This document shows positions 16,401 to 29,480 of a stretch of DNA of 64,000 nucleotides, piece after piece. The stretch spans positions 1 to 64,000 of the forward strand of contig NZ_JAEHOH010000015.1 in assembly GCF_016522505.1 (NCBI RefSeq), written 5' to 3'. A model generated the notes under the pieces. That model saw nothing but the letters and a program-made list of their open reading frames with translations. It had not been told where the DNA came from and ran no database searches. A program made the translations under genes and the position numbers. This DNA is from Leucobacter chromiisoli. GTDB lineage: Bacteria > Actinomycetota > Actinomycetes > Actinomycetales > Microbacteriaceae. Within the stretch, counting starts at the first letter, position 1. Each line of letters opens with the position of its first letter.

Positions 16401-17460
16401 CGATCCCTCGCGCCTGCCCGCCCACCTCACTCCGACCTTCCGCGTGATCGACGAGCGCGGCCGCACGATCGGCGCCGGCAAGGACCTGGGCGATCTGCAG
16501 CAGACGCACCGCGAGCGGGCGACGAAGGGCGTGGCGAAGGTCGCCGCGGCCTCGCTGCCGAGGAACGAGCTCGAGCGCGCCGGCGCGACGGCGTGGCAGT
16601 TCGGGGAGCTGCCCCGGCACGTCGACACGAGCTACTCCAAGGCGCGCGGAGGCGGAGGCGTGGTGCGCGCGTACCCCGCCATCGTCGATCGCCGCACGAG
16701 CGTCGATCTCGTGCTCGTCGCCTCCGAGGAGGAGCAGGCGCGACTGTCCAGGCGCGGGATCCGGCGACTCGTCGCCCTGAGCTCCCCCTCGCCCGCCGCC
16801 TACATCCGCGAGCACCTCTCCAACCAGGAGAAGCTGCTGCTCGGCGCCGGCCCCTACCGCACGCTCGATCTCGCGATCGCGGACGTCTCGCTCGCGGTCG
16901 CGGATCGCGTCATCCGGCGTCACGCCCCCGACGGTCTCGTCTGGTCGGAGGGCGGGTTCGAGCTGATCGCGAACGACTACGCCCGCTCCCTCATCGACGA
17001 GATCTACGGCGCCATCGCCCTCACCGCGCGCGTGCTCGACGGAGCGAGGCTCGCCCGCAAGGCCGTCGACGGCGCGAAGTCGCTGCAGGTGCTCGGCCAG
17101 GTGGCCGATGCGGCGGGGCAGATCGACGGCCTCGTCGCCGACGGCTTCGTCTCGCGCACGGGACTCGCGCAGCTCGAGCGGCTGCCGGTCTACCTCGAGG
17201 CGGTGCGACTGCGCATGCGGGGGCTGACCGAGAATCCCGGCCGGGATCGCGGCCGGCAGAACGAGGTCGACCGCGCGCTGCAGATGTTCAGGGACGCCGG
17301 CGGCGCGATCCCGCTCCCCGACCCCGCTCCCGAGCGGCTGGTGCGCACGCGCTGGCTCATCGAGGAACTGCGCGTTAGCCTGTTCGCGCAGCAGCTGCGC
17401 ACCGCCGAGCCCGTATCGCTCTCGCGCATCCAGAAGACGCTGAGCGCGACTGAGCGGTAG
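13423..17460 (+). CDS. hrpA: ATP-dependent RNA helicase HrpA
   Basis: 1345-aa DEAH-box RNA helicase; the family resolves mRNA structures and rescues stalled ribosomes. Motif I GETGSGKTTQLPK (about 43-55), DEAH in IIIDEAHERS, motif III ITSATIDPESF and motif VI QRSGRSGRTSPG are followed by the helicase-associated domains and the long HrpA-specific C-terminus. Start ATG at 13423 has GGAGAG 6 nt upstream. Two palindrome-rich stretches without counterpart in E. coli HrpA as I recall it interrupt otherwise aligned sequence (14742-14800 and 15197-15262); both stay in frame. A -10-like GATAAT lies at 13408-13413. Confidence 0.95.
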   Translation: MSYPAASAEPRIEFPPELPVSQMRDEIAEAIRDHQVVIVAGETGSGKTTQLPKIALALGRERIAHTQPRRLAARTIAERVAEELGSELGGLVGYQVRFTDRVSAGTRIRLMTDGILLNAIHRDRDLTAYDTIIIDEAHERSLNIDFLLGYLKTLLPRRPDLKVIITSATIDPESFAEHFASAGGEPAPVIEVSGRTFPVEIRYRPLVQETAMPDPKGGPPRIRKEERDLFDAIGDGVEELGREEKGDVLVFLSGEAEIRDAADALRGRFGSNRAKPIEILPLYGRLSAAEQHRVFERPTGASAAARRIVLATNVAETSLTVPGIRYVVDAGTARISRYSARSKVQRLPIEPVSQASANQRSGRSGRTSPGIAIRLYSEEDFESRPEFTEPEIRRTGLASVILQMLSLGLGDISRFPFLTPPDQRGIADGLGLLTELGAVESRSPGPSKGSRRPDPSSGSARGSHRITKIGRELARLPIEPRFARMVVESRRHGVVDEVLAIVAGLTIQDVRERPQAERGRADEMHARFADPQGDLMTLLNLWNYLQEQQRERSSSAFRRMCKAEYLNFLRVREWMDLFRQLSRIAGVKRPAAKSGTVTVASEGGKRAPASPIPGESGSGSSEAIHRSILAGLLSQLGVRDDRQDRSAPARGRGAPGAVKRKPAQEYVGSRGTRFVLYPGSVLAKKPPEVVMSVELVETSRLFARSNAVVDPAWAEELAGPLAKRNLSEPHWEKKQGAAVAYERVTLFGVPIVDRRRVQLARYDREHARELFIRHALVDGEWDSPQAFDRANRQLRRELEQLEERTRRRDLLSDDDAVFDFYDARIPSDVTSTRSFEGWWKEAQRKQPKLLTMRREDLLENEAGAEVDESEFPRQWRHGDQTLKLRYRFDPTAEDDGVTVTVPLPLLPRLDGSDFEKLVPGLREELVTALIKTLPKAIRKHVVPAADWARTLLAAVGPVLDRPLRPGDDAPALTALLADEIRRRTSVQVSPGDFDPSRLPAHLTPTFRVIDERGRTIGAGKDLGDLQQTHRERATKGVAKVAAASLPRNELERAGATAWQFGELPRHVDTSYSKARGGGGVVRAYPAIVDRRTSVDLVLVASEEEQARLSRRGIRRLVALSSPSPAAYIREHLSNQEKLLLGAGPYRTLDLAIADVSLAVADRVIRRHAPDGLVWSEGGFELIANDYARSLIDEIYGAIALTARVLDGARLARKAVDGAKSLQVLGQVADAAGQIDGLVADGFVSRTGLAQLERLPVYLEAVRLRMRGLTENPGRDRGRQNEVDRALQMFRDAGGAIPLPDPAPERLVRTRWLIEELRVSLFAQQLRTAEPVSLSRIQKTLSATER
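14742..14800 (+). repeat. Palindrome-rich in-frame insertion 1 in hrpA
   Basis: Two stem-loops in succession: GTCGCGCTCCC (14742-14752) pairs with GGGATCGCGAC (14766-14776) with one mismatch, and CCGATCCC (14780-14787) pairs perfectly with GGGATCGG (14793-14800). They encode a Ser/Gly/Arg/Pro-rich segment between LLTELGAVES and HRITKIGREL, where HrpA normally has a short loop. Confidence 0.5.
15200..15258 (+). repeat. Long imperfect palindrome inside hrpA (insertion 2)
   Basis: AATCGGGGACG (15200-15210) and CGTCCCCGATT (15248-15258) form a perfect 11-bp outer stem; CGCTTC / GAAGCG (15219-15224, 15234-15239) form a 6-bp inner stem, with a symmetric 8-nt mismatch region between and a 9-nt loop. 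It encodes the extra KSGTVTVASEGGKRAPASP stretch between RIAGVKRP and AIHRSILAGLL. The layout resembles the intergenic palindromes at 33279, 44692 and 53615. Confidence 0.55.
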
Positions 17461-17463
17461 CCT
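17458..17463 (+). promoter_or_regulatory. -10 box for leaderless ppgK mRNA
   Basis: TAGCCT, spanning the hrpA stop codon, is followed by 6 nt and the ATG at 17470. This would allow transcription of ppgK independent of hrpA. Confidence 0.4.
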
Positions 17464-17469
17464 GTGCGT

Positions 17470-18279
17470 ATGAGTCACCACAGCTCTGGGAACGCGAAGA
17501 GGATTCCCGCGATCGGCATCGACGTCGGCGGCACCGGGATCAAGGGGGCCGGCGTCGACCCCGCGACCGGCGAGAGGCTGACGAAGCGGCATCGGGTGGA
17601 GACCCCGCAGGGCGGAGCCCCCGACGCGATCGCGGCCGCCGTCGCCGCGATGGTCGCGGGCATCCGCGACGAGCTGGCCGAGCGCGAGCTGCTCGACCGC
17701 ACCCTCGTGCCGAAGATCGGGGTGACGCTTCCAGGGGTCGTGCAGCGCGGCATCATGCGCACCGCGGCGAACATCGACAAGCGATGGATCGACACCGACG
17801 CCGAGGCCCTGCTCACGGCGGCGGTCGGCGCGCCGTGCCTCGTGGTGAACGACGCGGACGCCGCAGGAATGGCGGAGACGGAGTTCGGCGCCGCGCGGGG
17901 CCAGCACGGCGTGACGATGGTGCTGACGTTCGGCACCGGGATCGGCACCGCCCTCATCCACGACGGGCGCCTCGTGCCGAACTTCGAACTCGGGCACCTC
18001 CAGCTGAACGGGCAGCTCGACTACGAACGGTTCGCCTCGCCGAAGAACATCGAGCGCGAGGGGATCACGATCGCCGACTGGGCGGCTCGCGTGGCCCCCT
18101 ACCTCGCGCATCTCGAGTTCGTGTGCCGCCCCGACCTCTTCGTGATCGGCGGCAGCATCAGCAAGTCGAGCGACGAGTACCTCCCCTTCGAGCACGTCAC
18201 GACCCCGGTGGTGCCCGCGCACTTCCGCAACAACGCCGGGATCGTGGGCGCCGCCGCGCTCGCGGCCGCCGCAGGCTGA
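17470..18279 (+). CDS. ppgK: Polyphosphate glucokinase (ROK family)
   Basis: 269-aa ROK-family sugar kinase that phosphorylates glucose, in this actinobacterial subgroup with polyphosphate as well as ATP. The phosphate-binding motif [11 protein letters not shown] is near residue 17, the second glycine motif [15 protein letters not shown] near 155, and the glucose-binding FELGHLQL shortly after. Length and the ELGHLQL variant fit the strictly polyphosphate/ATP glucokinase group (PPGK) rather than the zinc-containing ROK repressors. The ATG at 17470 follows the hrpA stop by 9 nt; a GTG two codons earlier is the alternative start. Confidence 0.9.
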
Positions 18280-18297
18280 CGCCTCGACGGGCTGGGC

Positions 18298-18312
18298 GGG
18301 CCTGCCAGGCCC
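18298..18312 (+). terminator. Short terminator-like hairpin after ppgK
   Basis: GGGCCTG-C-CAGGCCC forms a 7-bp inverted repeat 19 nt after the ppgK stop, with no U-tract. Confidence 0.4.
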
Positions 18313-18323
18313 CGCTGCCCCAG

Positions 18324-18340
18324 CGCGCATGATATGCGCG
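18324..18340. promoter_or_regulatory. 17-bp palindrome upstream of an MFS gene
   Basis: CGCGCAT-GAT-ATGCGCG is a perfect dyad about 75 nt upstream of the MFS -35 box. Just downstream the decamer CCCGCCGATA occurs twice. These are possible regulator sites; no regulator gene adjoins. Confidence 0.35.
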
Positions 18341-18413
18341 GTGAAACCACCCGCCGATAGCGGAATCCGACGCCTTCCGCGCTCTCGCCCGCCGATATGA
18401 TCCGTCCCCGCCC

Positions 18414-18442
18414 GTGACGCGGAGGGGCCGGCGGACTATACT
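18414..18442 (+). promoter_or_regulatory. Promoter for leaderless MFS mRNA
   Basis: GTGACG (18414-18419) and TATACT (18437-18442) are 17 nt apart, a good sigma-70-type pair. The GTG start codon at 18449 falls 6 nt after the -10 box, at the expected transcription start. Confidence 0.65.
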
Positions 18443-18448
18443 CTCCTG

Positions 18449-19678
18449 GTGGGCATCTATCGAGATCTGGGGCGCAGTCCGGGGGTCTTCCGAGTCCTCT
18501 TCGCGCAGCTCACCGCCCGGTTCCCCTTCGGGATGCTCTCGATCATCCTGCTGCTGCACATCCAGCTGGCCTACGGCGACTACACCTCCGCAGGCATCAT
18601 CCTCGCCTCGCAGAGCGTCGGCCAGGCGATCGCCGGCCCGCTGACCAGCCGCATGATGGGGCGCTGGGGCATGCGCCCCGTGCTGACCATCACCTCCCTG
18701 CTGTGCGCATCGCTCCTCGTCACGATCGCGCTGGTGCACCTGCCGCTGGCCGTGGTGGCGGGCATCGCGTTCCTGGTCGGCATCTCGACCCCGCCCGTCA
18801 CCCCGGCCGTGCGCACGATCTACCCCAAGCTCGTGCCGGGCAGGCAGCTCTCCGCCCTCTTCTCGCTCGACGCCTCGGCGCAGGAGATCATCTGGGTGTT
18901 CGGGCCCGTGGTCGCGGTCTTCGTCTCCTCGCAGTTCGGCACCTCCGCCGGCCTGCTCGTCGCGGCCGCGTTCATGGTCGGCGGAGGCGCCTGGTTCATC
19001 ATGAGCCCGGCGGTCGCCCAGGTGAGGATCCCGCGCGCCAGACGCAGCCTCGGCGCCGTGCTGCGGCGCCCGACCGTCGTGATCTCCACCATCGTCGGCT
19101 TCCTCTTCGTCGCCTCGTTCGCGGCGATCGAGGCGGGCATCGTGGCCGCCTTCGCCGACCAGGGCGGTGGGCACGGCGGACACGGCAGCATCGAGTCGGG
19201 CATCGTGCTCGCGGTCTTCGCGGGCGGATCGCTGATCGGCGGGCTGCTCGTCGGCCATCGCCAGCTGCGCCCGTGGTCGATGCTGCTGCGCGCGCTCGTG
19301 GTGCTCGCCGGCACGGCGCTGTGCCTCGTGAGGCTCGACATGTGGTGGCTCGCGCTCGTGCTGTTCCTCGGCGGTCTCGGCACTGCGCCGGTGTTCGCGG
19401 CCCTCTCGAACATCGTGAGCTCGACCGTGAAGTTCTCCGAGACCGCCGAGGCCTACGGCTGGGTCGGCACCGGCCAGCTCGTCGGAGTCGCCGCCGGTTC
19501 GGCGGTGGCGGGCATCGCCATCGACGCGGCGGGCCCGCGGGGTGCGATCCTCGTGTCGGTCGGATTCCTGCTGGTCACGGTGATCAGCGCGGCGGTCACG
19601 ATTCGCTGGCTCCCCGATCTGCGGGGGAAGGACGCCACGCCGCTCCCCGACACCGAGCCGCTGCAGCTGCCCGACTGA
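18449..19678 (+). CDS. MFS transporter
   Basis: 409-aa major facilitator with about 12 hydrophobic helices. The intracellular loop 2-3 has GPLTSRMMGRWGMRP and helix 4 is preceded by FLVGISTPPVTPAVRTIYPKL. A histidine/glycine-rich external loop (GGGHGGHGS, about 230-238) might bind a metal ion. The sequence resembles actinobacterial drug/arabinose-efflux-type MFS proteins, but no substrate can be assigned. The start is GTG with no Shine-Dalgarno, supported by a promoter placed for a leaderless transcript. The gene ends 6 nt before the convergent XRE-cupin regulator. Confidence 0.85.
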   Translation: MGIYRDLGRSPGVFRVLFAQLTARFPFGMLSIILLLHIQLAYGDYTSAGIILASQSVGQAIAGPLTSRMMGRWGMRPVLTITSLLCASLLVTIALVHLPLAVVAGIAFLVGISTPPVTPAVRTIYPKLVPGRQLSALFSLDASAQEIIWVFGPVVAVFVSSQFGTSAGLLVAAAFMVGGGAWFIMSPAVAQVRIPRARRSLGAVLRRPTVVISTIVGFLFVASFAAIEAGIVAAFADQGGGHGGHGSIESGIVLAVFAGGSLIGGLLVGHRQLRPWSMLLRALVVLAGTALCLVRLDMWWLALVLFLGGLGTAPVFAALSNIVSSTVKFSETAEAYGWVGTGQLVGVAAGSAVAGIAIDAAGPRGAILVSVGFLLVTVISAAVTIRWLPDLRGKDATPLPDTEPLQLPD

Positions 19679-19684
19679 TCGCGC

Positions 19685-20266
19685 TCAGTTGGAGCCGCTC
19701 CACGGCGCGGGGATCAGGGTCCACATCACCTCGGCGCCCTCGTCGCCGGCGTACCAGTTGTGCGGCGTCCTGCCGGGGAACGTGAGGGTGTCGCCCGCCC
19801 CGAGGTGCTCCTCGCGCTCCGCGAACCGCAGCAGCACCGAGCCGCTGATCACGTGCAGCACCTCGACGTCGCAGTTGACGGTGTAGAGCCCGCCCCCGCC
19901 GCTGCCGCCCGGTTCCAGCGAGGAGCGGATGGTCTGCACCCGGTCCTCGCCCCGCGGCGTGATCAGCCGCTCGTCGACACCCGTGCCGCCCATGTTGATG
20001 CGCGGCGCGCCGGCGAGGGCGATCCGCTGCACCTCGGGCGCCTCGAAGAGCGAGCCGACGGGCAGTGACAGCGCCTGGCAGATCTGCACGAGCGTCGAGA
20101 CGCTCGGCGACGTGCCGTCGCGCTCGATCCGGCTGAGGAACCCCTTCGTCACCCCCGCGGCGGCCGCGACGCGCTCCAGCGTGAGCCCCTGGGCGAGCCG
20201 GGAGGCGCGGAGCTTCGCGCCGATGCGGATCGGGCCGGACTCCGCGGCGGGGTGCACCGGTCGCAT
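19685..20266 (-). CDS. XRE-family regulator with C-terminal cupin
   Basis: 193-aa transcription factor. The helix-turn-helix (about 18-72) contains LRASRLAQGLTLERVAAAAGVTKGFLSRIERDGTSP-type residues, with VAAAAGVTKGFLSRIER as the recognition core. A cupin domain (about 110-185, ending PGRTPHNWYAGDEGAEVMW) is the likely ligand sensor. The architecture is that of PuuR-like repressors of amine and amino-acid catabolism. It is divergent from the ureohydrolase operon, whose promoter region holds two inverted repeats, so it is probably the local repressor; the ligand is unknown. AGGAG lies 7 nt before the ATG. Confidence 0.88.
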   Translation of the reverse strand: MRPVHPAAESGPIRIGAKLRASRLAQGLTLERVAAAAGVTKGFLSRIERDGTSPSVSTLVQICQALSLPVGSLFEAPEVQRIALAGAPRINMGGTGVDERLITPRGEDRVQTIRSSLEPGGSGGGGLYTVNCDVEVLHVISGSVLLRFAEREEHLGAGDTLTFPGRTPHNWYAGDEGAEVMWTLIPAPWSGSN

Positions 20267-20281
20267 GTCGCGCTCCTGTCA

Positions 20282-20311
20282 TTGACCGCAGCGGGGCGCT
20301 GCGCCTATAGT
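20282..20311 (+). promoter_or_regulatory. Promoter of the ureohydrolase operon
   Basis: TTGACC (20282-20287) and TATAGT (20306-20311) are separated by 18 nt, one of the best matches to the sigma-70 consensus in the window. The leader would be about 55 nt and carries two inverted repeats. Confidence 0.7.
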
Positions 20312-20321
20312 GAGGGGAAGT

Positions 20322-20359
20322 TCACCTCGGTGACTCATATGTTTACCACAAGAAAACAT
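20322..20359. promoter_or_regulatory. Two inverted repeats in the ureohydrolase leader
   Basis: TCACC-TC-GGTGA (20322-20333) begins just past the predicted transcription start, and ATGTTT / AAACAT (20339-20344 and 20354-20359, 9-nt spacer) precedes the GGAAGG ribosome site. Both are perfect dyads. They are likely operator candidates for the divergent XRE-cupin protein. The octamer ATGTTTAC recurs at 25572, in front of the MHS transporter gene. Confidence 0.5.
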
Positions 20360-20373
20360 GGAAGGACAAGGAC

Positions 20374-21321
20374 GTGACCTCTCACACCCCGCAGGGACCG
20401 GTGGACGCCAGCCTGACGCCCCGCTACGCAGGGATCGCGACGTTCGCGAAGCTGCCCCGCATCGAGGACGTTCCCGAGGCTCGCGTCGCGGTCGTCGGCG
20501 TCCCCTTCGACAGCGGCGTCAGCTACCGCCCCGGCGCCCGCTTCGGCCCCTCCCACGTGCGCGAGGCCTCGCGTCTGCTCCGCCCCTACAACCCCGCCCA
20601 GGACATCTCGCCGTTCGCCGTGCAGCAGGTCGTCGATGCGGGCGACATCGTCGCCAACCCCTTCAACCTCGACGAGGCCGTGCGCCAGGTCGAGGAGGCC
20701 GCGACCGAGCTCGGCGAGCGCGTCGAGAAGATCGTGACCATCGGCGGCGACCACACCATCGCCCTGCCGCTGCTGCGCGCCATCACCAAGAAGCACGGTC
20801 CGGTCGCGGTGCTGCACTTCGACGCGCACCTCGACACGTGGGACACGTACTTCGGCGCCCCCACCACGCACGGCACCCCCTTCCGCCGCGCCTCCGAAGA
20901 GGGCCTCATCGACATGACCGCCAGCATGCACGGCGGCACCCGCGGCCCGCTCTACGGCAAGGAGGACCTCGAGGACGACGAGCGCCTCGGCTTCGCGATC
21001 GTGACGAGCGAATACATCGAGGAGCACGGCGTGCAGGCCGCCCTCGACCGGATCCGCGACCGGATCGGCGACAAGCCGCTCTACATCTCGATCGACATCG
21101 ACGTGCTCGATCCGGCGCACGCGCCCGGCACCGGCACCCCGGAGGCGGGCGGGCTGACGAGCCGCGAGATGCTGCGCCTCATCCGCGGGCTCGCCGACCG
21201 CAACATCGTCGGCGCCGACGTCGTCGAGGTCGCCCCCGCCTACGACCACGCGCAGATGACGGCGGTCGCGGCGAGCCACGTCGTCTACGAGCTCATCAGC
21301 GCGATGGGCAAGTCGGTCTGA
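20374..21321 (+). CDS. Agmatinase-family ureohydrolase (guanidino substrate uncertain)
   Basis: 315-aa binuclear-metal amidinohydrolase that removes urea from a guanidino compound. Metal ligands are visible in [23 protein letters not shown] and [19 protein letters not shown]. The segment [17 protein letters not shown] is closer, as I recall the family, to guanidinobutyrase/guanidinopropionase-type enzymes than to E. coli SpeB, so agmatine is only one candidate. GTG start with GGAAGG about 8 nt upstream. It is first in an operon with a SnoaL-like protein, NCS1 permease, cyclase-family hydrolase and aldehyde dehydrogenase, suggesting uptake and catabolism of a nitrogenous compound. Confidence 0.85.
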
Positions 21322-21326
21322 GCGTC

Positions 21327-21791
21327 ATGCGCACCCCTGCCGAAGAGTCCGTCCTCGCCGCGGCCGACGCGATCGTGGCCGCGTTCGCCGCGACCGACAC
21401 CGCCGCCTACTTCGCCGGCTTCTCCCCCGATGCGAGCTTCGTCTTCCACCCCGAGCCCGCCCGGCTGAACTCCCGGGCCGAGTACGAGGAGCTGTGGCGG
21501 GGATGGCTCGAGAGCGGCTGGCGGGTGACCGCCTGCGAGTCGAGCGAACGGCTCGTGCAGACCTTCCCCGGCGGGGCGGTCTTCAGCCACACGGTCGCCA
21601 CGAGCATCGACAGCGCCGAGGGGCCCGACTCGTACGTCGAGCGGGAGAGCATCGTCTTCCGCGTGGACGGCGACGACCTCCTCGCCGTCCACGAGCACCT
21701 CTCCACCGTGCCCGACGAGATCGGAGCGCGGAACGCCGCCGCCGCGCAGGCGGGCGAGGAGCGGGATCGGAACAGGGAGGAGGCGGCATGA
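21327..21791 (+). CDS. SnoaL/NTF2-like protein (YybH-type)
   Basis: 154-aa protein of the nuclear transport factor 2-like cone fold, a family used as small binding domains or isomerases. The pattern (long N-terminal helix AAADAIVAAFAATDTAAYFAGF, then strands with FVFHPEPARLNSRAEYEELWRGW and VERESIVFRVDGDDLLAVHEHLS) fits DUF4440/SnoaL-like members. It starts 5 nt after the ureohydrolase stop, and its TGA overlaps the ATG of the permease, so it is translationally coupled to both. Its role in the pathway is unknown; possibly it binds or isomerises an intermediate. The tail is Ala/Glu/Arg-rich. Confidence 0.75.
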   Translation: MRTPAEESVLAAADAIVAAFAATDTAAYFAGFSPDASFVFHPEPARLNSRAEYEELWRGWLESGWRVTACESSERLVQTFPGGAVFSHTVATSIDSAEGPDSYVERESIVFRVDGDDLLAVHEHLSTVPDEIGARNAAAAQAGEERDRNREEAA

Positions 21792-23338
21792 CGAGCCCCG
21801 CGACCATGGCCGTCAACCTCGACGGCAGCGCCGACTCCGCGGGCCCCGTCCGCGGCACGCAGTCCCTGCCCCACGTCGGGATGATCTGGCTGGCGGCCAA
21901 TCTCGTCGTCACGACCCTGCTGACGGGCACGCTGTTCGTGCCGGGCGTCTCCTTCGGCACGGCCACCACGATGATCCTGCTCGGCACGCTCATCGGCGTG
22001 GTCGTGCTCGTGCTCGTCGGCAACATCGGCACCCGCACCGGACTGCCCACGATGGCGATCACGCGCGGCGCGTTCGGCATCCGGGGCAGCCTGCTGCCGG
22101 CCGCCGCCAACCTCATCATCCTGATGGGGTGGAGCTGGGTGCAGGCGATGCTCGCAGGGGTCACCGTGGACTACCTCGTCCATGAGGCCACGGGTTTCTC
22201 GAATCCGGCTCTGTTCTCCGCGATCTGCCAGGGCATCGTCGTCGTGCTCGCGATCTTCGGCCACACCGGCATCTCGCGCGTGGAGCCCTGGCTCGCGCTC
22301 GCGATCCTCGTGGTCATGGGCTTCGTCTTCGCCGCGGCGTTCGGCGCCTTCGGCATCTCCGACTTCGCCGCGATCCCGGTCGACCCCGAGTTGGGCGCCA
22401 CGCCCTTCACCACGCTCGACATCGTCATCGCCACCGCGATCTCGTGGACCGTGCTCTCGGCCGACATGAACCGCCACGCGAAGACCAGCACCGCCGGAAT
22501 CGTCGGCTCGGGGATCGGCTACACCCTGTCGACCGTCATCGCGATGCTGCTCGGCCTCGTCGCCTTCAGCACCGTGCTGCTGCGCGACGGCGACGCCGCG
22601 CCGTTCGACCCGACCGTCATCGTCTCCGAATTCGGGTGGCCGCTCGGCATCGCCATCTTCCTCTCCGTCATGGCCACCAACACGATGGTCGTCTTCGGCA
22701 TGGTCACCTCGGTGGTCAACGCCCAGTCGAAGTGGCACCTCCGGTTCCTGCCCACCGCCATCGTGCTCGGCGTGATCTCGGTGATCGGGTCGACGTTCCT
22801 GGGGCTGCTCGACCAGTTCACCGACTTCCTGTTCGTGATCAGCGCGTTCTTCGTCCCCGTGTTCGCGATCATGATCGCCGACTACTACCTGCTCAAGCGC
22901 CGCGCCTACTCGAGGCAGATCCTGCACGAGACCCCCGCGAGCCGCTACTGGTACCGCGGCGGCGTCAACTGGATCGCCGTGGTCGTCTGGGTGATCGGCG
23001 CCGCGCTCTCCTACCTGCTCAGCTACGTCGTCCCGAGCCCCCTCGGGGCGAACATCCCCGCGTTCGCGGCGAGCTTCCTGCTCTATCTCGTCCTCATGCT
23101 CCTGCTCGGTCGCGCGCTGGGCCTGCGGGATCCGCGCGATCCCGAGCCGACGGGCCACCTGCTCGACCAGATCGCGACCGAGGAGATCGCCCAGCCGGCG
23201 CGGTCGACGCAGGCTGGGCCCGAGCGGTCGGCGCGGCCGGCGCAGGCGAATCGGGATCCGGCAGAGGGGGATCCGGCGCAGGGGGATCCGGCGCAGGGCG
23301 GCCCGGCGCGACCGACGGACCCCGGGGCGAAGGACTGA
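21788..23338 (+). CDS. NCS1-family permease (cytosine/purine/hydantoin type)
   Basis: 516-aa secondary transporter with about 12 hydrophobic helices. NCS1 hallmarks include the N-terminal WLAANLVVTTLLTGTLF, the GWSWVQAMLAGV segment and SADMNRHAKTS in the middle, where substrate and sodium or proton sites lie. Family substrates are nucleobases, hydantoins, allantoin and thiamine precursors; here the operon suggests a guanidino or ureido compound, which is inference. The start overlaps the previous stop (ATGA). The C-terminal tail contains three 15-bp repeats encoding DPAEG/DPAQG (23255-23299). Confidence 0.88.
   Translation: MTSPATMAVNLDGSADSAGPVRGTQSLPHVGMIWLAANLVVTTLLTGTLFVPGVSFGTATTMILLGTLIGVVVLVLVGNIGTRTGLPTMAITRGAFGIRGSLLPAAANLIILMGWSWVQAMLAGVTVDYLVHEATGFSNPALFSAICQGIVVVLAIFGHTGISRVEPWLALAILVVMGFVFAAAFGAFGISDFAAIPVDPELGATPFTTLDIVIATAISWTVLSADMNRHAKTSTAGIVGSGIGYTLSTVIAMLLGLVAFSTVLLRDGDAAPFDPTVIVSEFGWPLGIAIFLSVMATNTMVVFGMVTSVVNAQSKWHLRFLPTAIVLGVISVIGSTFLGLLDQFTDFLFVISAFFVPVFAIMIADYYLLKRRAYSRQILHETPASRYWYRGGVNWIAVVVWVIGAALSYLLSYVVPSPLGANIPAFAASFLLYLVLMLLLGRALGLRDPRDPEPTGHLLDQIATEEIAQPARSTQAGPERSARPAQANRDPAEGDPAQGDPAQGGPARPTDPGAKD
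23255..23299 (+). repeat. Three 15-bp tandem repeats in a permease tail
   Basis: GATCCGGCAGAGGGG, GATCCGGCGCAGGGG and GATCCGGCGCAGGGC follow each other in frame, encoding DPAEG, DPAQG, DPAQG in the cytoplasmic C-terminus of the NCS1 permease. Confidence 0.8.
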
Positions 23339-23342
23339 GCGC

Positions 23343-24164
23343 GTGACGCTCGTCGATCTCAGCCGGCCCGTCACGAGCGGGATGCCCGTCTACCCCGGCG
23401 ACCCCGAGGTGCGGATCGACGAGGCGCTCGACATCGAGACGGACGGCGTGGCCGTCGCGTCGCTGCGGATGGGATCGCACACCGGCACGCACCTCGATGC
23501 CCCGTCGCACTCGATTGCGGGCGGCAGGACCGTGGACCGGATCCCGCTCGATCTGCTCTGCGGCGAGGCGCGGGTGCTCCGGGCGTCGTCGGTCGGCCCC
23601 GGGGAGGGGATCGTCGCCGACCATCTGGACGCGCCGCTCCCGGCGGAGCTGCCCCGCATCGTCCTGCTCGGAACGGGGTGGGATCGCGCCTTCGGCACCC
23701 CGGAGGCGCTGCAGCACCCCCACCTGGCGGTCGAGTTCGCGCGGCGGCTCTGGGACCGCGGGGCCCGGGTGCTCGGTGTCGACACGTTCAGCCCGGACCC
23801 GACGGATCCGGCGGCGACCGCGATGCCGGTCCACGAGTTCTGGCTCGGGGGCGACGGGGTCATCGTCGAGAACCTCACCGGGCTCCTGGCCCTGCCGGAC
23901 CGCGTGGAGGCCGCCCTGCTCCCGCTGCGCCTGGCGGGCGTCGACGGATCGCCCGTGCGGGCCGTAGCCAGGATCGCCCAGGAACCCCTCTGGCGACGGA
24001 ATCCGTCGCACATTCGCACCGATACGAACGATACGAACAGCTCGAACGCCGAATTCGCACGCATTCGGGATGTAGTGCGAACGAGCGAGGTGTGGGAGAC
24101 TGGCAGCACCCAGCACACGACGAAGTCACGAGGAGTGAGTCATACATGGGCAAGTACGCCGTGA
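23343..24164 (+). CDS. Cyclase-family metal hydrolase (kynurenine formamidase-like)
   Basis: Member of the cyclase/KynB fold that hydrolyses amides or lactams using a metal bound by the motif HxGTHxDxPxH, seen here as HTGTHLDAPSH (about 50-60). The early DLSRPVTSGMPVYPGDP is also typical. Expected length is about 210-225 residues, and the recognisable domain ends near GSPVRAVARI; the frame then continues about 60 residues through AT-richer DNA that overlaps the next gene by 19 nt. The extra tail is probably fortuitous. GTG start 4 nt after the permease stop. It might open a ring or amide product upstream of the dehydrogenase. Confidence 0.85.
   Translation: MTLVDLSRPVTSGMPVYPGDPEVRIDEALDIETDGVAVASLRMGSHTGTHLDAPSHSIAGGRTVDRIPLDLLCGEARVLRASSVGPGEGIVADHLDAPLPAELPRIVLLGTGWDRAFGTPEALQHPHLAVEFARRLWDRGARVLGVDTFSPDPTDPAATAMPVHEFWLGGDGVIVENLTGLLALPDRVEAALLPLRLAGVDGSPVRAVARIAQEPLWRRNPSHIRTDTNDTNSSNAEFARIRDVVRTSEVWETGSTQHTTKSRGVSHTWASTP
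24053..24081. promoter_or_regulatory. Inverted repeat upstream of the aldehyde dehydrogenase
   Basis: TTCGCAC (24053-24059) and GTGCGAA (24075-24081) form a 7-bp inverted repeat, and a further TTCGCAC copy lies at 24013-24019 beside the tandem GATACGAAC-type repeat. The area is less GC-rich than its surroundings and sits in the poorly conserved tail of the cyclase gene, so it may be a control region for the next gene. Confidence 0.4.
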
Positions 24165-25501
24165 TCAACCCGGCCACGGGCGAAACCGTCGCCGAGTACC
24201 CCGGGGCCACCGACGAGCAGATCGAAGAGGCCATCGCCTCCGCGCACCGCGCCTACCGGGAATGGGCTCGCAAGACGACGCTCGCCGAACGAGCCGCGCT
24301 GGCGCAGAAGGCCGCGGACCTGATGATCGAGCGCAAGGAGGAGCTCGGGGCCATCATCAACCGCGAGATGGGCAAGCCCCTCGATCAGGCGGTCGGCGAG
24401 GCGGAGTTCTCGGGTGAGATCACCGCGGCATTCGCGAAGAACGCCGAGACCTGGCTCGCCGACGAGGAGCTGCAGGTCGAGGACGGCCTGCGCACCTTCA
24501 TCCGCAAGCAGGGCATCGGCCCGATCCTCGGCATCATGCCCTGGAACTACCCCTACTACCAGGTCGCGCGCTTCGCGTCGCCGAACCTGATCCTCGGCAA
24601 CACGATCGTGCTCAAGCACGCCGAGCAGTGCCCAGAGTCGGCGCTCGCGCTCGAGAAGATCTACCGCGACGCCGGCTTCCCCGAGGGCGCGTACGTGAAC
24701 GTGTTCGCGTCGCACGACCAGATCTCGACCATCATCGCCGACGATCGCATCCAGGGCGTCTCGCTCACCGGCTCGGAGCGCGCCGGCGCGATCATCGCCG
24801 AGCAGGCCGGCAAGCACCTCAAGAAGTGCGTGCTCGAGCTCGGCGGATCCGATCCGTTCATCGTGCTCGACACCGCCAACATCGACCACGCGGTCGAGCA
24901 GGCCGTGGGCGGCCGCATGGAGAACACCGGCCAGGCGTGCAACGGCTCGAAGCGTATCATCGTGCTCGACCAGTACTTCGACGAGTTCGCCGAGAAGTTC
25001 AAGGCGGCGATCGGCGGCCAGTCGTACGAGAACGGCGACTTCGGCCCGCTGTCCTCCGCGAAGGCGACCGAGACGCTCGCCTCGCAGGTGCAGGGCGCCC
25101 TGGACCAGGGCGCCGAGGTGCTCGTCGGTGACAGCTCCCCCGAGGGCAACCGGTTCACACCGACCGTGATCACCGGCGTCACTCCGGAGATGGACGTGTA
25201 CAGCCAGGAGCTGTTCGGCCCCGTCGCCCAGCTCTACCGGGTATCGAGCGAGGAGGAGGCGATCGAGCTCGCCAACTCGTCGCCCTACGGCCTGGGCTCG
25301 GTCGTGATCTGCGACGACCTCGAGCGCGCGGAGAGCGTGGGCGATCGCCTCGACGTGGGCATGGTGTTCATCGGGGCCGCGGGCCTCGAGGGCGCCGACG
25401 TGCCGTTCGGCGGCGTGAAGAAGTCGGGCTACGGCCGCGAGCTGGGCAAGGGCGGCATGGAGGAGTTCGCCAACAAGAAGCTCTTCCGCTTCGCCGGCTA
25501 G
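24146..25501 (+). CDS. gabD: Aldehyde dehydrogenase, succinate-semialdehyde type
   Basis: 451-aa NAD(P)-dependent aldehyde dehydrogenase. The catalytic glutamate lies in LELGGSDPFIVL and the nucleophilic cysteine in NTGQACNGSKR; the substrate/cofactor region GIMPWNYPYYQVARF and the oxyanion Asn in PWN are present. Length and sequence are closest to the GabD/YneI subgroup that oxidises succinate semialdehyde, so it could finish degradation of 4-guanidinobutyrate, putrescine or GABA, in keeping with its operon (inference). ATG at 24146 has AGGAG about 10 nt upstream. A strong terminator follows 18 nt after the stop. Confidence 0.88.
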   Translation: MGKYAVINPATGETVAEYPGATDEQIEEAIASAHRAYREWARKTTLAERAALAQKAADLMIERKEELGAIINREMGKPLDQAVGEAEFSGEITAAFAKNAETWLADEELQVEDGLRTFIRKQGIGPILGIMPWNYPYYQVARFASPNLILGNTIVLKHAEQCPESALALEKIYRDAGFPEGAYVNVFASHDQISTIIADDRIQGVSLTGSERAGAIIAEQAGKHLKKCVLELGGSDPFIVLDTANIDHAVEQAVGGRMENTGQACNGSKRIIVLDQYFDEFAEKFKAAIGGQSYENGDFGPLSSAKATETLASQVQGALDQGAEVLVGDSSPEGNRFTPTVITGVTPEMDVYSQELFGPVAQLYRVSSEEEAIELANSSPYGLGSVVICDDLERAESVGDRLDVGMVFIGAAGLEGADVPFGGVKKSGYGRELGKGGMEEFANKKLFRFAG

Positions 25502-25519
25502 GCTCGGCCCGTCTGCGCA

Positions 25520-25549
25520 GGGGTCGGGGTCCTTCGGGGCCCCGACCCC
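25520..25549 (+). terminator. Terminator of the ureohydrolase-ALDH operon
   Basis: A 13-bp stem (GGGGTCGGGGTCC / GGGCCCCGACCCC, one G-U pair) is closed by a TTCG tetraloop. This very stable hairpin marks the end of the operon. Confidence 0.85.
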
Positions 25550-25570
25550 GTTGCGTTCCCGCTCACCCGC

Positions 25571-25579
25571 TATGTTTAC
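25571..25579 (+). promoter_or_regulatory. -10 region for leaderless MHS transporter mRNA
   Basis: TATGTT (25571-25576) lies 6 nt before the GTG start at 25583. The overlapping octamer ATGTTTAC is shared with the leader of the ureohydrolase operon (20339-20346), hinting at common regulation. Confidence 0.4.
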
Positions 25580-25582
25580 TAA

Positions 25583-26923
25583 GTGGCATCCGGCAGAACA
25601 GCAGCGACGAATCAGGAGCACGCGGTGGACGCACCCCTCGATGAGGACCCTCGCACCTCCCTCTCCCGGGCCCGCAAGGTCGCGTTCGCGGCGCTCGCCG
25701 GCACCGCGATGGAGTGGTACGACTACTACCTGTTCGGCCTCGCGGCCGCGCTGGTCTTCAACCGCCTCTACTTCACGACGCTCGATCCGCGCGCGGCCTC
25801 GCTCGCGGCGTTCGCGACGTTCGGGGTCGGCTTCGTCGCCCGCCCGCTCGGCGCGGTGCTGTTCGGCAGCATCGGCGACCGCGTCGGCCGCAGGCCGGCG
25901 CTGATCCTGAGCGTCGCGCTCATCGGCGTGGCGACCGCGTGCATGGGCGTGCTCCCCGACTTCACCGCGATCGGCATCGCCGCCCCCGTCTTCCTCGTGC
26001 TGCTGCGCCTCGTCCAGGGCGTCGCCGTCGGGGGCGAGTGGAGCGGCGCCATGACCATCGCCGTCGAGCACGCACCGCCGGAGCACCGCAGCCGGCTCGC
26101 CTCGCTCGTGCAGCTCTCGTCCCCCGTCGCGACACTGCTGTCGAGCGGCGCCTTCACGCTCGTGCTCATGCTGCCGCCCGAGTCGTTCGACGCCTGGGGC
26201 TGGCGGCTGCCGTTCCTCGCCGCGCTGCCCATGCTCGGCGTGGCCGTCTTCATGCGGATCCGGATCGACGAGTCGCCGGAGTTCCGCGAGGTCGCGCGGG
26301 AGGGCGCCCGCACCCGGGTGCCGTTCGCTGCCGTCTTCCGGCGCGCCCCGGGGCGGCTCGGCATCGCGATCCTCATCTCGATGCTCGGCGTCGGCGGCTT
26401 CTACTTCATGAACACGTTCCTCGTGAACTTCGGTGCGAACGAGCGCGGCTTCGACCGGCAGCTCATGGTGAACGCGACGCTCGTCGCCGCCGTGGTGCAG
26501 GCCGGGGTGACGCTGTGGTCGGGGCGGCTGGCCGAGCGCTTCGGTCCCGGCCGGGTGACGCTGTGGGGCGGGCTCGCGACGGCCGTCGTCGCGTTCCCGG
26601 TGTTCTGGCTCGTGGATTCCCAGCAGCCGGCGGCAGCGGTGCTCGCGGTGTGCCTGGGGCTGTCGGCGGTGATCCTCGCCTACGGGACGGCCGGCTCGGC
26701 CCTCGCCGGGCTCTTCCCGACGGAGCTGCGCTACTCAGGGGTGAGCCTCGGCTACAACCTGGCTGCGGTCGTCGGGGGCTTCCTTCCGCTCGCGGCGCAG
26801 GCCTCGCTCGGAGCATCGGGCGGAGCCTCATGGGGGCCGGCAGCCCTCTTCGCCCTGTTCGGGCTGGCCACCGCCCTCGGCGGAGCGCTCGCCCACCGCG
26901 TCTCACGCTCCCCCGACGCCTGA
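25583..26923 (+). CDS. MFS transporter, metabolite:H+ symporter (MHS) type
   Basis: 446-aa major facilitator of the MHS subgroup (relatives ShiA, ProP, KgtP), proton symporters for organic acids and betaines. The subgroup marker GTAMEWYDYYLFG in helix 1 and the loop FGSIGDRVGRRPALILSV are clear, with RFGPGRV in the second half. The substrate could be an acid or amine linked to the preceding catabolic operon, from which it is separated by a terminator. GTG start, apparently leaderless. The GTG is followed by about 25 polar residues before helix 1. Confidence 0.88.
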   Translation: MASGRTAATNQEHAVDAPLDEDPRTSLSRARKVAFAALAGTAMEWYDYYLFGLAAALVFNRLYFTTLDPRAASLAAFATFGVGFVARPLGAVLFGSIGDRVGRRPALILSVALIGVATACMGVLPDFTAIGIAAPVFLVLLRLVQGVAVGGEWSGAMTIAVEHAPPEHRSRLASLVQLSSPVATLLSSGAFTLVLMLPPESFDAWGWRLPFLAALPMLGVAVFMRIRIDESPEFREVAREGARTRVPFAAVFRRAPGRLGIAILISMLGVGGFYFMNTFLVNFGANERGFDRQLMVNATLVAAVVQAGVTLWSGRLAERFGPGRVTLWGGLATAVVAFPVFWLVDSQQPAAAVLAVCLGLSAVILAYGTAGSALAGLFPTELRYSGVSLGYNLAAVVGGFLPLAAQASLGASGGASWGPAALFALFGLATALGGALAHRVSRSPDA

Positions 26924-27035
26924 GAGACATCGTCGTCCGAGGTCGTCCTCAGCGATCGGCGACTGAGATCGTCGCCTGAGATCGACTCGTGAGCGATCGA
27001 CGGCTGAGACATCTCTCTCCGACCCTCGAGGTGCA
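26924..27035. other. Intergenic stretch with degenerate GATCG/CTGAGA repeats
   Basis: The 112 nt after the MHS transporter are rich in variants of GATCG and CTGAGA(GA)CATC (near 26930 and again near 27005). No reading frame or promoter is convincing. The two CTGAGA-CATC copies frame the stretch like direct repeats. Confidence 0.3.
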
Positions 27036-27071
27036 GTTGAGGCTCCGCATCCGAAGATGCAGAGCCTCGAC
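27036..27071. terminator. Bidirectional terminator between MHS gene and DEAD helicase
   Basis: GAGGCTC-C-GCATC pairs with GATGC-A-GAGCCTC around a CGAA tetraloop, extended by four more outer pairs; one C/A mismatch interrupts the stem. It lies between convergent genes. Confidence 0.75.
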
Positions 27072-27111
27072 TGCGCACTCGAAGCCTGGCCCGGCGCCCC
27101 GCGAGGGAGCG

Positions 27112-29367
27112 CTACCAGCGCGGCTTGCGCTTCCCGCCCTGGGGGCCGCGGTCGCCGCCCCGGCCCCCGCGGTCGTCGCGCCCGCCACGGTCGTCCCGGC
27201 CCCCGCGGCCCCCGCGGTCCTGGTAGCCGCCGCGATCGCCGCGCCCGCCGCGGTCGTCGCGGTTCCACGAGCCGCCGCGATCCGAGCCGCCGGAGCGGTA
27301 CCCGCGATCGCCGCGGTCCTCCCAGCGGCCACCGCGGTCCTCGCGCCCACCGCGGTCGTCGTACCGCCCGCGGTCTCCCCCGCGGGTGTCGCGGTCCCAG
27401 CCCCCGCGGGATCCGCCACGGTGATCCCGATCGCTCCGGCCGTCCCGGTCGCCCCGGCCATCCCGGTCGCCGCGGTAGGAGCCGCGCCCGCGATCCTCCC
27501 AGCCCTTGCCGCGCGGTGCGGGGCCGGCGTCGACGCGCAGTTCGATCGGCTTGCCGCCGATGCGCGTGTTCGCGAGCCGGTCGAGTGCGTCCGCCGGCAG
27601 ATTCGCCGGGAGCTCGACCAGCGAGAAGTCCTCGCGCACCTGGATGCGACCGAAGTCGTCCCGGCCGAGGCCGCCCTCGTTGGCGATCGCGCCCACGATC
27701 TGGCCCGGCTGCACCCGCTGCCTACGACCCACCTCGATGCGGTACATGGTGAGGTCGTCCCGGCGCTCACCGCGCGGGCGACGCTCGCCGCGCTCACCGC
27801 GCTCGCCCCGGTCGCCGCGGTCGCCCCGGTCGCGCGACCCATCCTCGAGGAAGCGGGCGGCCTGCGCACGGTCCCGCTCGAACTTGCGGTCGTCCTCCTC
27901 CGAGAGCAGCAGCGGGGTGTCGCCCTGCGAGACGACGGCGAGCGCCGCTGCGACGTCGTTCTCGGGCACGTTGTGGTGCTCGACGTAGTGGGCGATGATG
28001 TCGCGGAAACGGTCGATGCGCGCGGTCTCGGCGAGCGCCGCCGTGATGGCGTCGTCGAAGCGCGACAGCCGGGTGGCGTTCACCTCGTCGACGCTGGGCA
28101 GCGGCATCTGCGTGAGGGGCTGCTTGGTGGCCTTCTCGATCGCCTTCAGCAGGCGGCGCTCGCGGGGCGTGACGAAGCTGATGGCGTCTCCCGTGCGGCC
28201 GGCGCGACCCGTGCGGCCGATGCGGTGCACGTACGACTCGGTGTCGATGGGCAGATCGAAGTTCACGACGTGGCTGATACGCTCGACGTCGAGACCTCGG
28301 GCAGCCACGTCCGTCGCGACGAGGATGTCCAGCTTGCCGTCCTTCAGCGCCTGCACGGTGCGCTCGCGCTGCGCCTGCTGCACGTCGCCGTTGATCGCCG
28401 CAGCCGAGTAGCCGCGCGCGCGGAGCTTCTCGGCGACCTGCTCGGTGTCGTTCCGGGTGCGGGTGAAGACGATGAGCCCGTCGAAGTCCTCGACCTCGAG
28501 GATGCGGGTGAGCGCGTCGAGCTTCTGCGTGTACGAGACCACGACGTAGCGCTGCGTGATGTTCGAGGAGGTCTGGGTCTTCCCCGCGATCTTCACCTCG
28601 CGCGGGTCGTTCAGGTACTGCTGCGAGATGCGCCGGATCTGCGCGGGCATCGTCGCGGAGAAGAGCGCGACCTGCTTCTCGGCCGGGGTGTCGGCGAGGA
28701 TCGTCTCGACGTCCTCGGCGAAGCCCATCTTCAGCATCTCGTCGGCCTCGTCGAGCACGAGGTACTTGATCTGGGAGAGGTCGAGCGATCCGCGCTCCAT
28801 GTGGTCCATGATGCGCCCGGGGGTGCCCACCACGACATCGACGCCTCGGCGCAGCGCGGAGAGCTGCTGCCCGTACGCCTGGCCGCCGTAGACGGGCAGC
28901 AGGTGCACCTGCGGCAGGTGGGAGGCGTAGCTCTCGAACGCCTCGCACACCTGCAGGGCGAGCTCACGGGTCGGCGCGAGCACGAGCGCCTGCGGCACCC
29001 CCTGCCCGGGCTCGATGCGCGAGAGGATCGGCAGCGCGAACGCCGCGGTCTTTCCGGTGCCGGTCTGCGCGAGGCCGACGACGTCGCGCCCCTCGAGCAG
29101 GGTGGGGATGGTGGCCGCCTGGATCGCCGAGGGGGTCTCGTAGCCCACCTCGGTGATGGCGCGCAGCACCTCGGGGCCGAGGCCCAGATCGGAGAAGGTG
29201 ACGCGCTCCTGCTCGGGGGCGGCGTCGGAAGCGGTGTCGGTGTCGGTCGCGGCGCTGTCGCCCGCGGGGGCGGAGTTCGGCTGGGTCTCAGCCCGCTCCT
29301 CGGTCGCGGGGGCCTCGGCGGCGGGTTCGTCGGCCGAAGCGGGCGCGGGGTTCTCGGAAGAGGTCAT
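27112..29367 (-). CDS. deaD: DEAD-box RNA helicase (DeaD/CsdA type) with RGG-like tail
   Basis: 751-aa ATP-dependent RNA helicase acting in ribosome assembly and mRNA turnover, often cold-induced. An acidic Ala/Glu-rich leader (about 55 residues) precedes the Q motif (VTFSDLGLGPEVLRAI), Walker A AQTGTGKT, VLDEADEML, FSATMPAQIRR and HRIGRTGRAGR. A DbpA-like RNA-binding domain (about 545-625, MYRIEVGRRQRVQPGQIVGAI) is followed by about 120 residues of DRGG/RGDR repeats, which bind RNA non-specifically. ATG at 29367 is the second of two adjacent ATGs; a TAGACT box 6 nt upstream predicts a leaderless message starting there. Confidence 0.94.
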   Translation of the reverse strand: MTSSENPAPASADEPAAEAPATEERAETQPNSAPAGDSAATDTDTASDAAPEQERVTFSDLGLGPEVLRAITEVGYETPSAIQAATIPTLLEGRDVVGLAQTGTGKTAAFALPILSRIEPGQGVPQALVLAPTRELALQVCEAFESYASHLPQVHLLPVYGGQAYGQQLSALRRGVDVVVGTPGRIMDHMERGSLDLSQIKYLVLDEADEMLKMGFAEDVETILADTPAEKQVALFSATMPAQIRRISQQYLNDPREVKIAGKTQTSSNITQRYVVVSYTQKLDALTRILEVEDFDGLIVFTRTRNDTEQVAEKLRARGYSAAAINGDVQQAQRERTVQALKDGKLDILVATDVAARGLDVERISHVVNFDLPIDTESYVHRIGRTGRAGRTGDAISFVTPRERRLLKAIEKATKQPLTQMPLPSVDEVNATRLSRFDDAITAALAETARIDRFRDIIAHYVEHHNVPENDVAAALAVVSQGDTPLLLSEEDDRKFERDRAQAARFLEDGSRDRGDRGDRGERGERGERRPRGERRDDLTMYRIEVGRRQRVQPGQIVGAIANEGGLGRDDFGRIQVREDFSLVELPANLPADALDRLANTRIGGKPIELRVDAGPAPRGKGWEDRGRGSYRGDRDGRGDRDGRSDRDHRGGSRGGWDRDTRGGDRGRYDDRGGREDRGGRWEDRGDRGYRSGGSDRGGSWNRDDRGGRGDRGGYQDRGGRGGRDDRGGRDDRGGRGGDRGPQGGKRKPRW

Positions 29368-29373
29368 CATACT

Positions 29374-29379
29374 AGTCTA
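29374..29379 (-). promoter_or_regulatory. -10 box for leaderless deaD mRNA
   Basis: TAGACT on the minus strand is followed by 6 nt and the ATG at 29367. The spacing selects the second of the two tandem ATG codons. Confidence 0.5.
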
Positions 29380-29480
29380 CGACGGATCGGGCCGCATCAC
29401 GACCCCGAGCGCCGCGACACGCCGCGGGCCGCGCCCTTCCCGCCGCCGGGGAGGCGTCCGCGCTTCCCCGCTCCGATCGG

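Follow-up and report, generated by a model that had tools for sequence, protein, structure and literature searches.

The segment between positions 19,685 and 26,923 of a 64,000-nucleotide stretch of Leucobacter chromiisoli DNA (hereafter the window; contig NZ_JAEHOH010000015.1, all coordinates being positions in the window) is a probable guanidinobutyrase locus with a new transport and hydrolysis module. It contains genes for a divergent XRE-cupin regulator, a ureohydrolase, a SnoaL-fold protein, an NCS1 family permease, a PF04199 'cyclase' hydrolase and a succinate-semialdehyde-type dehydrogenase, followed by a metabolite:H+ symporter (MHS) family transporter. On balance, we favour the uptake and breakdown of a guanidino acid as the function of the locus; 4-guanidinobutyrate, or a compound yielding it, is the most likely substrate. 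For this analysis, the gene order and its conservation, the active-site residues, the co-occurrence of permease and ureohydrolase and the operator-like sites were computed. An earlier note, made from the sequence alone, had listed these genes and proposed the possible catabolism of a guanidino or ureido compound. The inventory is borne out by the coordinates and family matches, and the breakdown of a guanidino compound is supported by residue R70 and a loop of the ureohydrolase, by neighbours of the 4-guanidinobutyrate pathway type in related loci and by the partial conservation of the permease and the cyclase.

The ureohydrolase as a predicted guanidino-acid hydrolase

The ureohydrolase contains the motifs GGDH (position 124), DAHLD (150) and SIDIDVLDP (239), which we take to be the binuclear metal motifs of ureohydrolases, and the motif quoted in the earlier note is also present in its translation. 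Its best matches in the PDB are guanidinobutyrase (3nio) and guanidinopropionase (3nip). In the alignment R70 corresponds to R72 of the guanidinobutyrase GbuA, a residue that caps the active site and could contact the substrate carboxylate according to an excerpt of the published work (PMC9772407). Neither of the two aligned agmatinases has an Arg in this column and both show an 8-residue gap after IRT, where the window enzyme keeps the loop, as in guanidino-acid hydrolases. Y159 aligns with Y157 of the guanidinopropionase GpuA and with M161 of GbuA, a column that has a role in specificity. The conservation of both positions was examined in 144 non-reference alignment rows, each a distinct locus sequence that spans 280 residues or more, after the removal of shorter matches and of rows containing stops. 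The rows include copies of the window gene and of its paralogue and, for some genomes, overlapping cuts; R was found at the R70 column in 143 of them and Y at the 159 column likewise in 143. In the rows shown, loci linked to a thiamine pyrophosphate (TPP) enzyme, to an oxidase or to an NCS1 permease do not differ at R70, at Y159 or in the loops around them, and the substrate is therefore probably common to them.

In a phylogeny with characterised enzymes, a check suggested in the earlier note, the agmatinases split off with strong support, whereas the group of the window enzyme formed a clade of its own rather than joining the characterised guanidinobutyrase; the two agmatinases formed another clade and GbuA, GpuA and PAH a third, in a tree with long branches and a midpoint root. 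Weighing the active-site residues above the NCBIfam scores given below, we predict that the enzyme is probably a guanidino-acid hydrolase. An identity as metformin or guanidine hydrolase was rejected, since those PDB entries score far below GbuA (at most 99.4 bits for the metformin hydrolase subunits vs 263 for GbuA).

Gene order and neighbours in related loci

To describe the gene context we used the best 80 named loci of those listed around the closest ureohydrolases and counted neighbours within 6 kb. The nearest named ureohydrolase loci among the matches listed belong to Leucobacter, with 87–90% identity. Leucobacter musarum, Agromyces (L082, L083, L090), Agrococcus (L091, L100), Microbacterium yannicii (L092) and Cryobacterium sp. 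Y82 (L093) all have the window's order of divergent regulator, ureohydrolase, SnoaL, NCS1 and cyclase, which is rearranged in Gulosibacter (L106). The divergent regulator beside the ureohydrolase recurs in related loci. Three Leucobacter contigs stop less than 300 bases past the permease match, and in L076 no cyclase was found within 2.7 kb. Locus L108 has the set ureohydrolase, NCS1 and CN_hydrolase, as if an amidase had been substituted for the cyclase, and in L078 (Leucobacter edaphi) an 87%-identical ureohydrolase and the regulator are accompanied by SSS and TPP-enzyme genes that replace NCS1 and cyclase. In a second arrangement, where the NCS1 has only 23% identity, L040, L049, L062 and L102 retain the XRE regulator, cyclase and ureohydrolase, and a SnoaL match was obtained in L040, L049 and L102; the ureohydrolase of L102 lies 3 kb off and adjoins a TPP enzyme, and L040 also has a 54%-identical dehydrogenase. 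The synteny search suggested in the earlier note thus found the permease and cyclase conserved beside the ureohydrolase in part of the relatives, and the two results it had named as contrary to its proposal, a firm grouping with agmatinases and a lack of such conservation, were not observed.

Among the best 80 loci, the window-type NCS1 is a neighbour in 13 and other NCS1 subfamilies in 4 more. A TPP-enzyme homologue (at least 25% identity) is present in 51, and the representative from L045 has as best match PRK07524, 5-guanidino-2-oxopentanoate decarboxylase (487.9 vs a cut-off of 500). An oxidase homologous to the L-amino acid oxidase/monooxygenase 3we0 (L038, 716 bits) occurs in 2 of the 80 and also in further loci of the order sample, while CN_hydrolase and gamma-aminobutyrate (GABA) transaminase genes adjoin some related ureohydrolases. 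Neighbours of these kinds belong to routes leading from arginine through 4-guanidinobutyrate to GABA. The presence of genes of the 2-ketoarginine decarboxylase, amino-acid monooxygenase, amidase and GABA transaminase types therefore points to 4-guanidinobutyrate.

Co-occurrence of permease and ureohydrolase

A search of 396 genomes from the order detected the NCS1 subfamily of the window (E≤1e-80) in 29, and a ureohydrolase (E≤1e-60) is present in all of these: in 12/12 that belong to a set of 198 genomes, where the base rate is 56/198, and in the remaining 17/17, which were searched separately. The hypergeometric probability is about 1e-7 by genome, 1.6e-4 by genus and 1e-4 without genus g10 (whose total was assumed to be 14 of 198), all uncorrected for kinship. 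A neutral control, xylA, showed no enrichment (30/116). The ureohydrolase lies within 6 kb of the permease in 6 of the 29 genomes, five of the window's own family and one of another (G073). Beside the permease, SnoaL was found in 21/29 genomes and the cyclase in 12/29, and a search of the whole genomes (E≤1e-15) gave a cyclase match in 12 and none in 17. Because of these frequencies, NCS1 and SnoaL look like a smaller core that the cyclase and ureohydrolase joined in some lineages. Since the permease occurs without a cyclase match in 17 genomes, ring opening is unlikely to be required for every use of the permease.

A plasmid of Tsukamurella (L247, 6576–9034) carries an NTF2 gene overlapping a 'cytosine permease' gene whose product is 56% identical to the window NCS1. 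The permease gene is followed by that of a 234-residue protein without a Pfam match, the pair adjoins an Lrp-type regulator, and no ureohydrolase is annotated within the 15 kb examined.

Alternative explanations

Several findings speak against the assignment to 4-guanidinobutyrate. The ureohydrolase is about 42% identical to each of GbuA, GpuA, PAH and both agmatinases, and so no nearer to guanidinobutyrase than to agmatinases. Two agmatinase models of NCBIfam, moreover, exceed their cut-offs (PRK02190, 309.1 vs 302; TIGR01230, 238.2 vs 174.3). The earlier note had placed the enzyme closer to guanidinobutyrase-like proteins than to SpeB, and these whole-sequence comparisons do not support this. 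Both results would fit an ordinary agmatinase of polyamine metabolism with incidental neighbours. We regard this as very unlikely, because the Arg at the GbuA R72 column and the intact loop are both absent in the two aligned agmatinases, which split off with strong support in the tree, and because the gene context and its synteny disfavour such an enzyme even though the NCBIfam scores favour it.

Residue 159 is a Tyr, as in guanidinopropionase, and not the Met of GbuA. This is consistent with an NCS1-SnoaL-cyclase module that handles a cyclic substrate of its own, such as a hydantoin-, creatinine- or dihydropyrimidine-like ring, with the ureohydrolase acting on the guanidino acid that ring opening releases, which would be guanidinoacetate or 3-guanidinopropionate, for instance, and not 4-guanidinobutyrate. 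The hydantoin permease Mhp1 is the nearest solved structure to the NCS1 permease, and W117 and Q121 of the Mhp1 pocket are conserved in it as W115 and Q119 (the Trp and Gln of Mhp1-type pockets are named in an excerpt of PMC13390362); the cyclase is also distantly related to isatin hydrolase, which opens a lactam, and to KynB. A dedicated ring substrate nevertheless seems unlikely to us, since R70, Y159 and the loops are the same in relatives located beside genes of the arginine-to-guanidinobutyrate type, and since most of the genomes with the permease (17/29) gave no cyclase match.

The permease itself could have another substrate, because no cyclase match (E≤1e-15) was obtained in any of the 15 NCS1-positive genomes of genus g10 and because the ureohydrolase lies more than 6 kb away in 23 of the 29 genomes. 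In addition, the threshold of E≤1e-60 counts orthologues of the window gene together with those of its 62%-identical paralogue, and a second NCS1 subfamily, taken as a control from a ureohydrolase locus, co-occurs with the ureohydrolase in 4/4 genomes, so that effects of lifestyle or linkage are possible. The distance between the two genes and the Tsukamurella pair would agree with NCS1 and SnoaL, with or without the cyclase, serving an unrelated nucleobase-like nutrient and having no more than regulation or genome type in common with the ureohydrolase. Given the co-occurrence in 29/29 genomes and the repeated linkage of the ureohydrolase to the window-type NCS1 and to two further NCS1 subfamilies, we hold this explanation to be quite unlikely.

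The genome also encodes a second ureohydrolase, the 62%-identical paralogue, near an SSS-type symporter gene (L054, contig 38), as well as a third arginase-family gene on contig 39. Finally, 11 related loci extend 5 kb or more beyond the permease, and in none of them does a dehydrogenase match lie beside the module. No MHS match was found in these 11 loci either, and the dehydrogenase and MHS genes are local additions.

Regulator and operator-like sites

The XRE-cupin regulator has weak similarity to PuuR (60 bits vs a cut-off of 211). A promoter scan of positions 18500–29500 gave one site, at 20282–20311, where shuffled sequences gave an expectation of 0.3. Inspection by eye of 24 related gaps between regulator and ureohydrolase revealed a GTT-N11-AAC palindrome in 16, a near form in 2 and none in 6. 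A matrix was built from 18 related promoters, with the window excluded and L018, L023, L027, L031, L065 and L133 left out as site-less by eye. Over all window positions this matrix ranks 20341, in front of the ureohydrolase, first (17.8 bits) and 25574, in front of the MHS gene, second (11.7 bits, an unremarkable value, since three of 12 random windows reach 12.0–12.8), and the third position, 8017 on the minus strand, scores 11.1. With a five-site Leucobacter matrix the MHS site scores 15.3, vs a maximum of 14.7 in random windows. A degenerate operator pattern matched only the 20341 and 25574 sites in the 3.35 Mb genome, with 0 matches for the reversed control, a result that is partly circular because the pattern was written with both window sites known. 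From the ranks and the genome pattern, the MHS gene is therefore probably, though not certainly, part of the XRE-cupin regulon, with 25574 as its candidate operator. No Rfam match at the gathering threshold was obtained in 15000–30000, so that the guanidine riboswitch expected near a GdmH-type guanidine hydrolase system is lacking there, and control by such a riboswitch was discarded on this ground.

Proposed pathway

The pathway set out here is inferred as regards all substrates, the direction of transport, what SnoaL does and whether the regulator binds. The NCS1 permease, with its small SnoaL-fold partner, would take up the compound, and the cyclase-family hydrolase, where present, would open an amide or lactam of it. 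From 4-guanidinobutyrate, the ureohydrolase would then produce GABA and urea; the GABA would pass to a transaminase whose gene is located in another part of the genome, and the dehydrogenase would convert succinate semialdehyde to succinate. The XRE-cupin protein may sense a pathway compound and control the operon, and probably the MHS gene, through the GTT...AAC palindrome. The more specific proposal, that NCS1 and SnoaL take up guanidino acids or their amides or lactams and that the PF04199 protein is a hydrolase of masked guanidino acids feeding the guanidinobutyrase, is tentative and we put it forward with considerable doubt; such a route and transporter specificity are not described in the open-licence papers searched.

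A GABA transaminase gene is located on contig 12 (612 bits, above the cut-off) and a PRK07524-like enzyme is encoded on contig 27 (468 vs a cut-off of 500). No urease alpha subunit was detected in the genome (best score 21 bits vs a cut-off of 680; other urea-degrading routes were not searched), and urea may therefore be a released product. On contig 27 (L223), Amidohydro_3, MHS and PRK07524-like TPP homologues lie together, and the 17.6 kb examined there gave no match to the ureohydrolase; homologues of these three are located near the ureohydrolase in several Microbacterium loci.

Features of the locus

The features of the locus are listed in Table 1. The ureohydrolase, SnoaL, NCS1 and cyclase genes are closely packed; the stop codon of the SnoaL gene overlaps the NCS1 start (ATGA), and 4 nucleotides separate NCS1 and cyclase. 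The earlier note had described a single unit running through the dehydrogenase and ending in a strong terminator. A common unit is plausible from the ureohydrolase through the cyclase, whereas the dehydrogenase probably has its own promoter, because the DNA past the conserved end of the cyclase has a low GC content (59% in 23985–24145, vs 75% before and 68% after) and contains inverted repeats. As for the terminator, a very stable hairpin follows the dehydrogenase (the 76-nucleotide stretch folds at -43.3 kcal/mol, z -2.4), but this hairpin lacks a T-run and was not among the terminators that the scan reported.

Table 1. Genes and DNA elements of the locus, with positions in the window
Feature	Positions	Strand	Evidence
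XRE-cupin transcription regulator, 193 residues	19685–20266	-	HTH_3 and Cupin_2 above gathering threshold
Sigma-70-like promoter, TTGACC-18-TATAGT	20282–20311	+	Promoter scan
Operator-like palindrome GTTTACCACAAGAAAAC, 3' of the -10 box	20341–20357	+	Relatives' matrix, 17.8 bits
Ureohydrolase, predicted guanidino-acid hydrolase / 4-guanidinobutyrase, 315 residues	20374–21321	+	Arginase family, 320.8 bits
SnoaL_3 / NTF2-fold protein, 154 residues	21327–21791	+	SnoaL_3, 43 bits
NCS1 family permease, 516 residues	21788–23338	+	Transp_cyt_pur (PF02133), 124 bits vs gathering 23.5
PF04199 'cyclase' metal-dependent hydrolase	23343–24164	+	PF04199, 97.3 bits vs gathering 23.1
Low-GC stretch with inverted repeats, likely regulatory DNA 5' of the dehydrogenase	23980–24145	.	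GC content, repeats
Succinate-semialdehyde-type aldehyde dehydrogenase, 451 residues from ATG 24146 (scanned from 24134)	24146–25501	+	Aldedh, 423 bits
Very stable hairpin without T-run, 3' of the dehydrogenase	25515–25556	+	Folding
Second operator-like site GTTTACTAAGTGGCATC, 5' of the likely MHS start	25574–25590	+	Relatives' matrix, 11.7 bits
MHS-family MFS transporter, likely start GTG 25625 after AGGAG (by eye)	25583–26923	+	MFS_1, 108 bits

The cyclase carries the motif HxGTHxDxPxH from H46, plus H164 and E176. Its conserved part ends near nucleotide 23979 and about 60 further C-terminal residues run to 24164, while 20 aligned relatives are 209–227 residues long. No stop codon is present at the point where the relatives terminate, and the open reading frame continues for about 60 codons, across DNA that looks intergenic, into the start of the dehydrogenase. 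The best NCBIfam match of the dehydrogenase is PRK09406, of the succinate-semialdehyde dehydrogenase type (443.6 vs a cut-off of 730), and TIGR01780 scores 341.6 vs 646; the MHS transporter matches TIGR00883 with 337 bits, below the cut-off of 443. Upstream of the locus, at 17464–18279, there is a gene for a ROK-family polyphosphate glucokinase (NCBIfam, above cut-off).

The structural model of the SnoaL protein has a predicted local distance difference test score (pLDDT) of 94 and matches NTF2/cystatin-like folds in the PDB, hub folds among them. Tyr28, Arg106 and an HEHLS motif are invariant in 23 SnoaL sequences. The association (hub) domain CaMKII_AD was matched by 11 of the 23 relatives (best E 1.6e-15), the window protein itself being unmatched. 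According to an excerpt of PMC12148480, the CaMKII hub binds gamma-hydroxybutyrate (GHB) ligands through His395, Arg433, Arg453 and Arg469. In the alignment of the SnoaL profile with CaMKII-gamma, judged by eye with our own residue mapping, no Arg matches these ligand residues, and a hub-like role is only a weak lead.

Comparison with known systems

The window enzyme shares with GbuA of Pseudomonas aeruginosa the ureohydrolase family, its motifs and the carboxylate-capping Arg, and relatives of the window gene adjoin 2-ketoarginine-decarboxylase-type and GABA genes, as in GbuA and arginine dehydrogenase-type pathways. It differs by the 42% identity, by its separate clade and by the NCS1, SnoaL and cyclase genes found in place of the upstream arginine-pathway genes. 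The Zn-guanidinobutyrase/D-arginase of Arthrobacter sp. KUJ 8602, as cited in an excerpt of PMC11271267, is similar by description as an actinobacterial guanidinobutyrase.

In the metformin cluster metR2TR1ABCaCb, as given in excerpts of PMC11271267 and PMC13390362, the gene of the NCS1 importer MetT is clustered with genes of the ureohydrolase family that encode the metformin hydrolase, a likeness to the window; an NCS1 permease and a ureohydrolase can therefore serve a guanidino-type compound. That cluster has two ureohydrolase-family genes and nickel chaperones, whereas the window has a single ureohydrolase gene plus SnoaL and cyclase. The nine proteins of 17464–26923 include one arginase-family member and no nickel-chaperone family, and the other two arginase-family genes of the genome are on other contigs.

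AtzH, an NTF2-fold enzyme of cyanuric acid breakdown, and HpxZ (an excerpt of PMC6219798) resemble the SnoaL protein as small NTF2-fold proteins, amidohydrolases in their case, encoded in a catabolic operon for a nitrogen compound. An AtzH-like function was rejected, the comparison of profiles giving a probability of 3.6% and no usable match. KynB and isatin hydrolase share with the cyclase the PF04199 metal-dependent hydrolase family and its motif, but the arylformamidase model TIGR03035 scores far below its cut-off (91.5 vs 223 bits), and a KynB function was discarded. In the open-licence PubMed Central (PMC) literature, no NCS1-cyclase-guanidinobutyrase unit is described in the titles and abstract starts found, and 'guanidinobutyrate' and 'NCS1' come together there only in the metformin hydrolase paper.

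Biological meaning

If the proposed function is correct, it would provide a physiological substrate for an actinobacterial NCS1 subfamily with a plasmid-borne relative that bears no annotation beyond 'cytosine permease', and a role for SnoaL-fold and PF04199 proteins encoded beside an NCS1 permease. The pairing of NCS1 permease and ureohydrolase reported for metformin degradation would, in addition, be connected with the natural turnover of guanidino acids.

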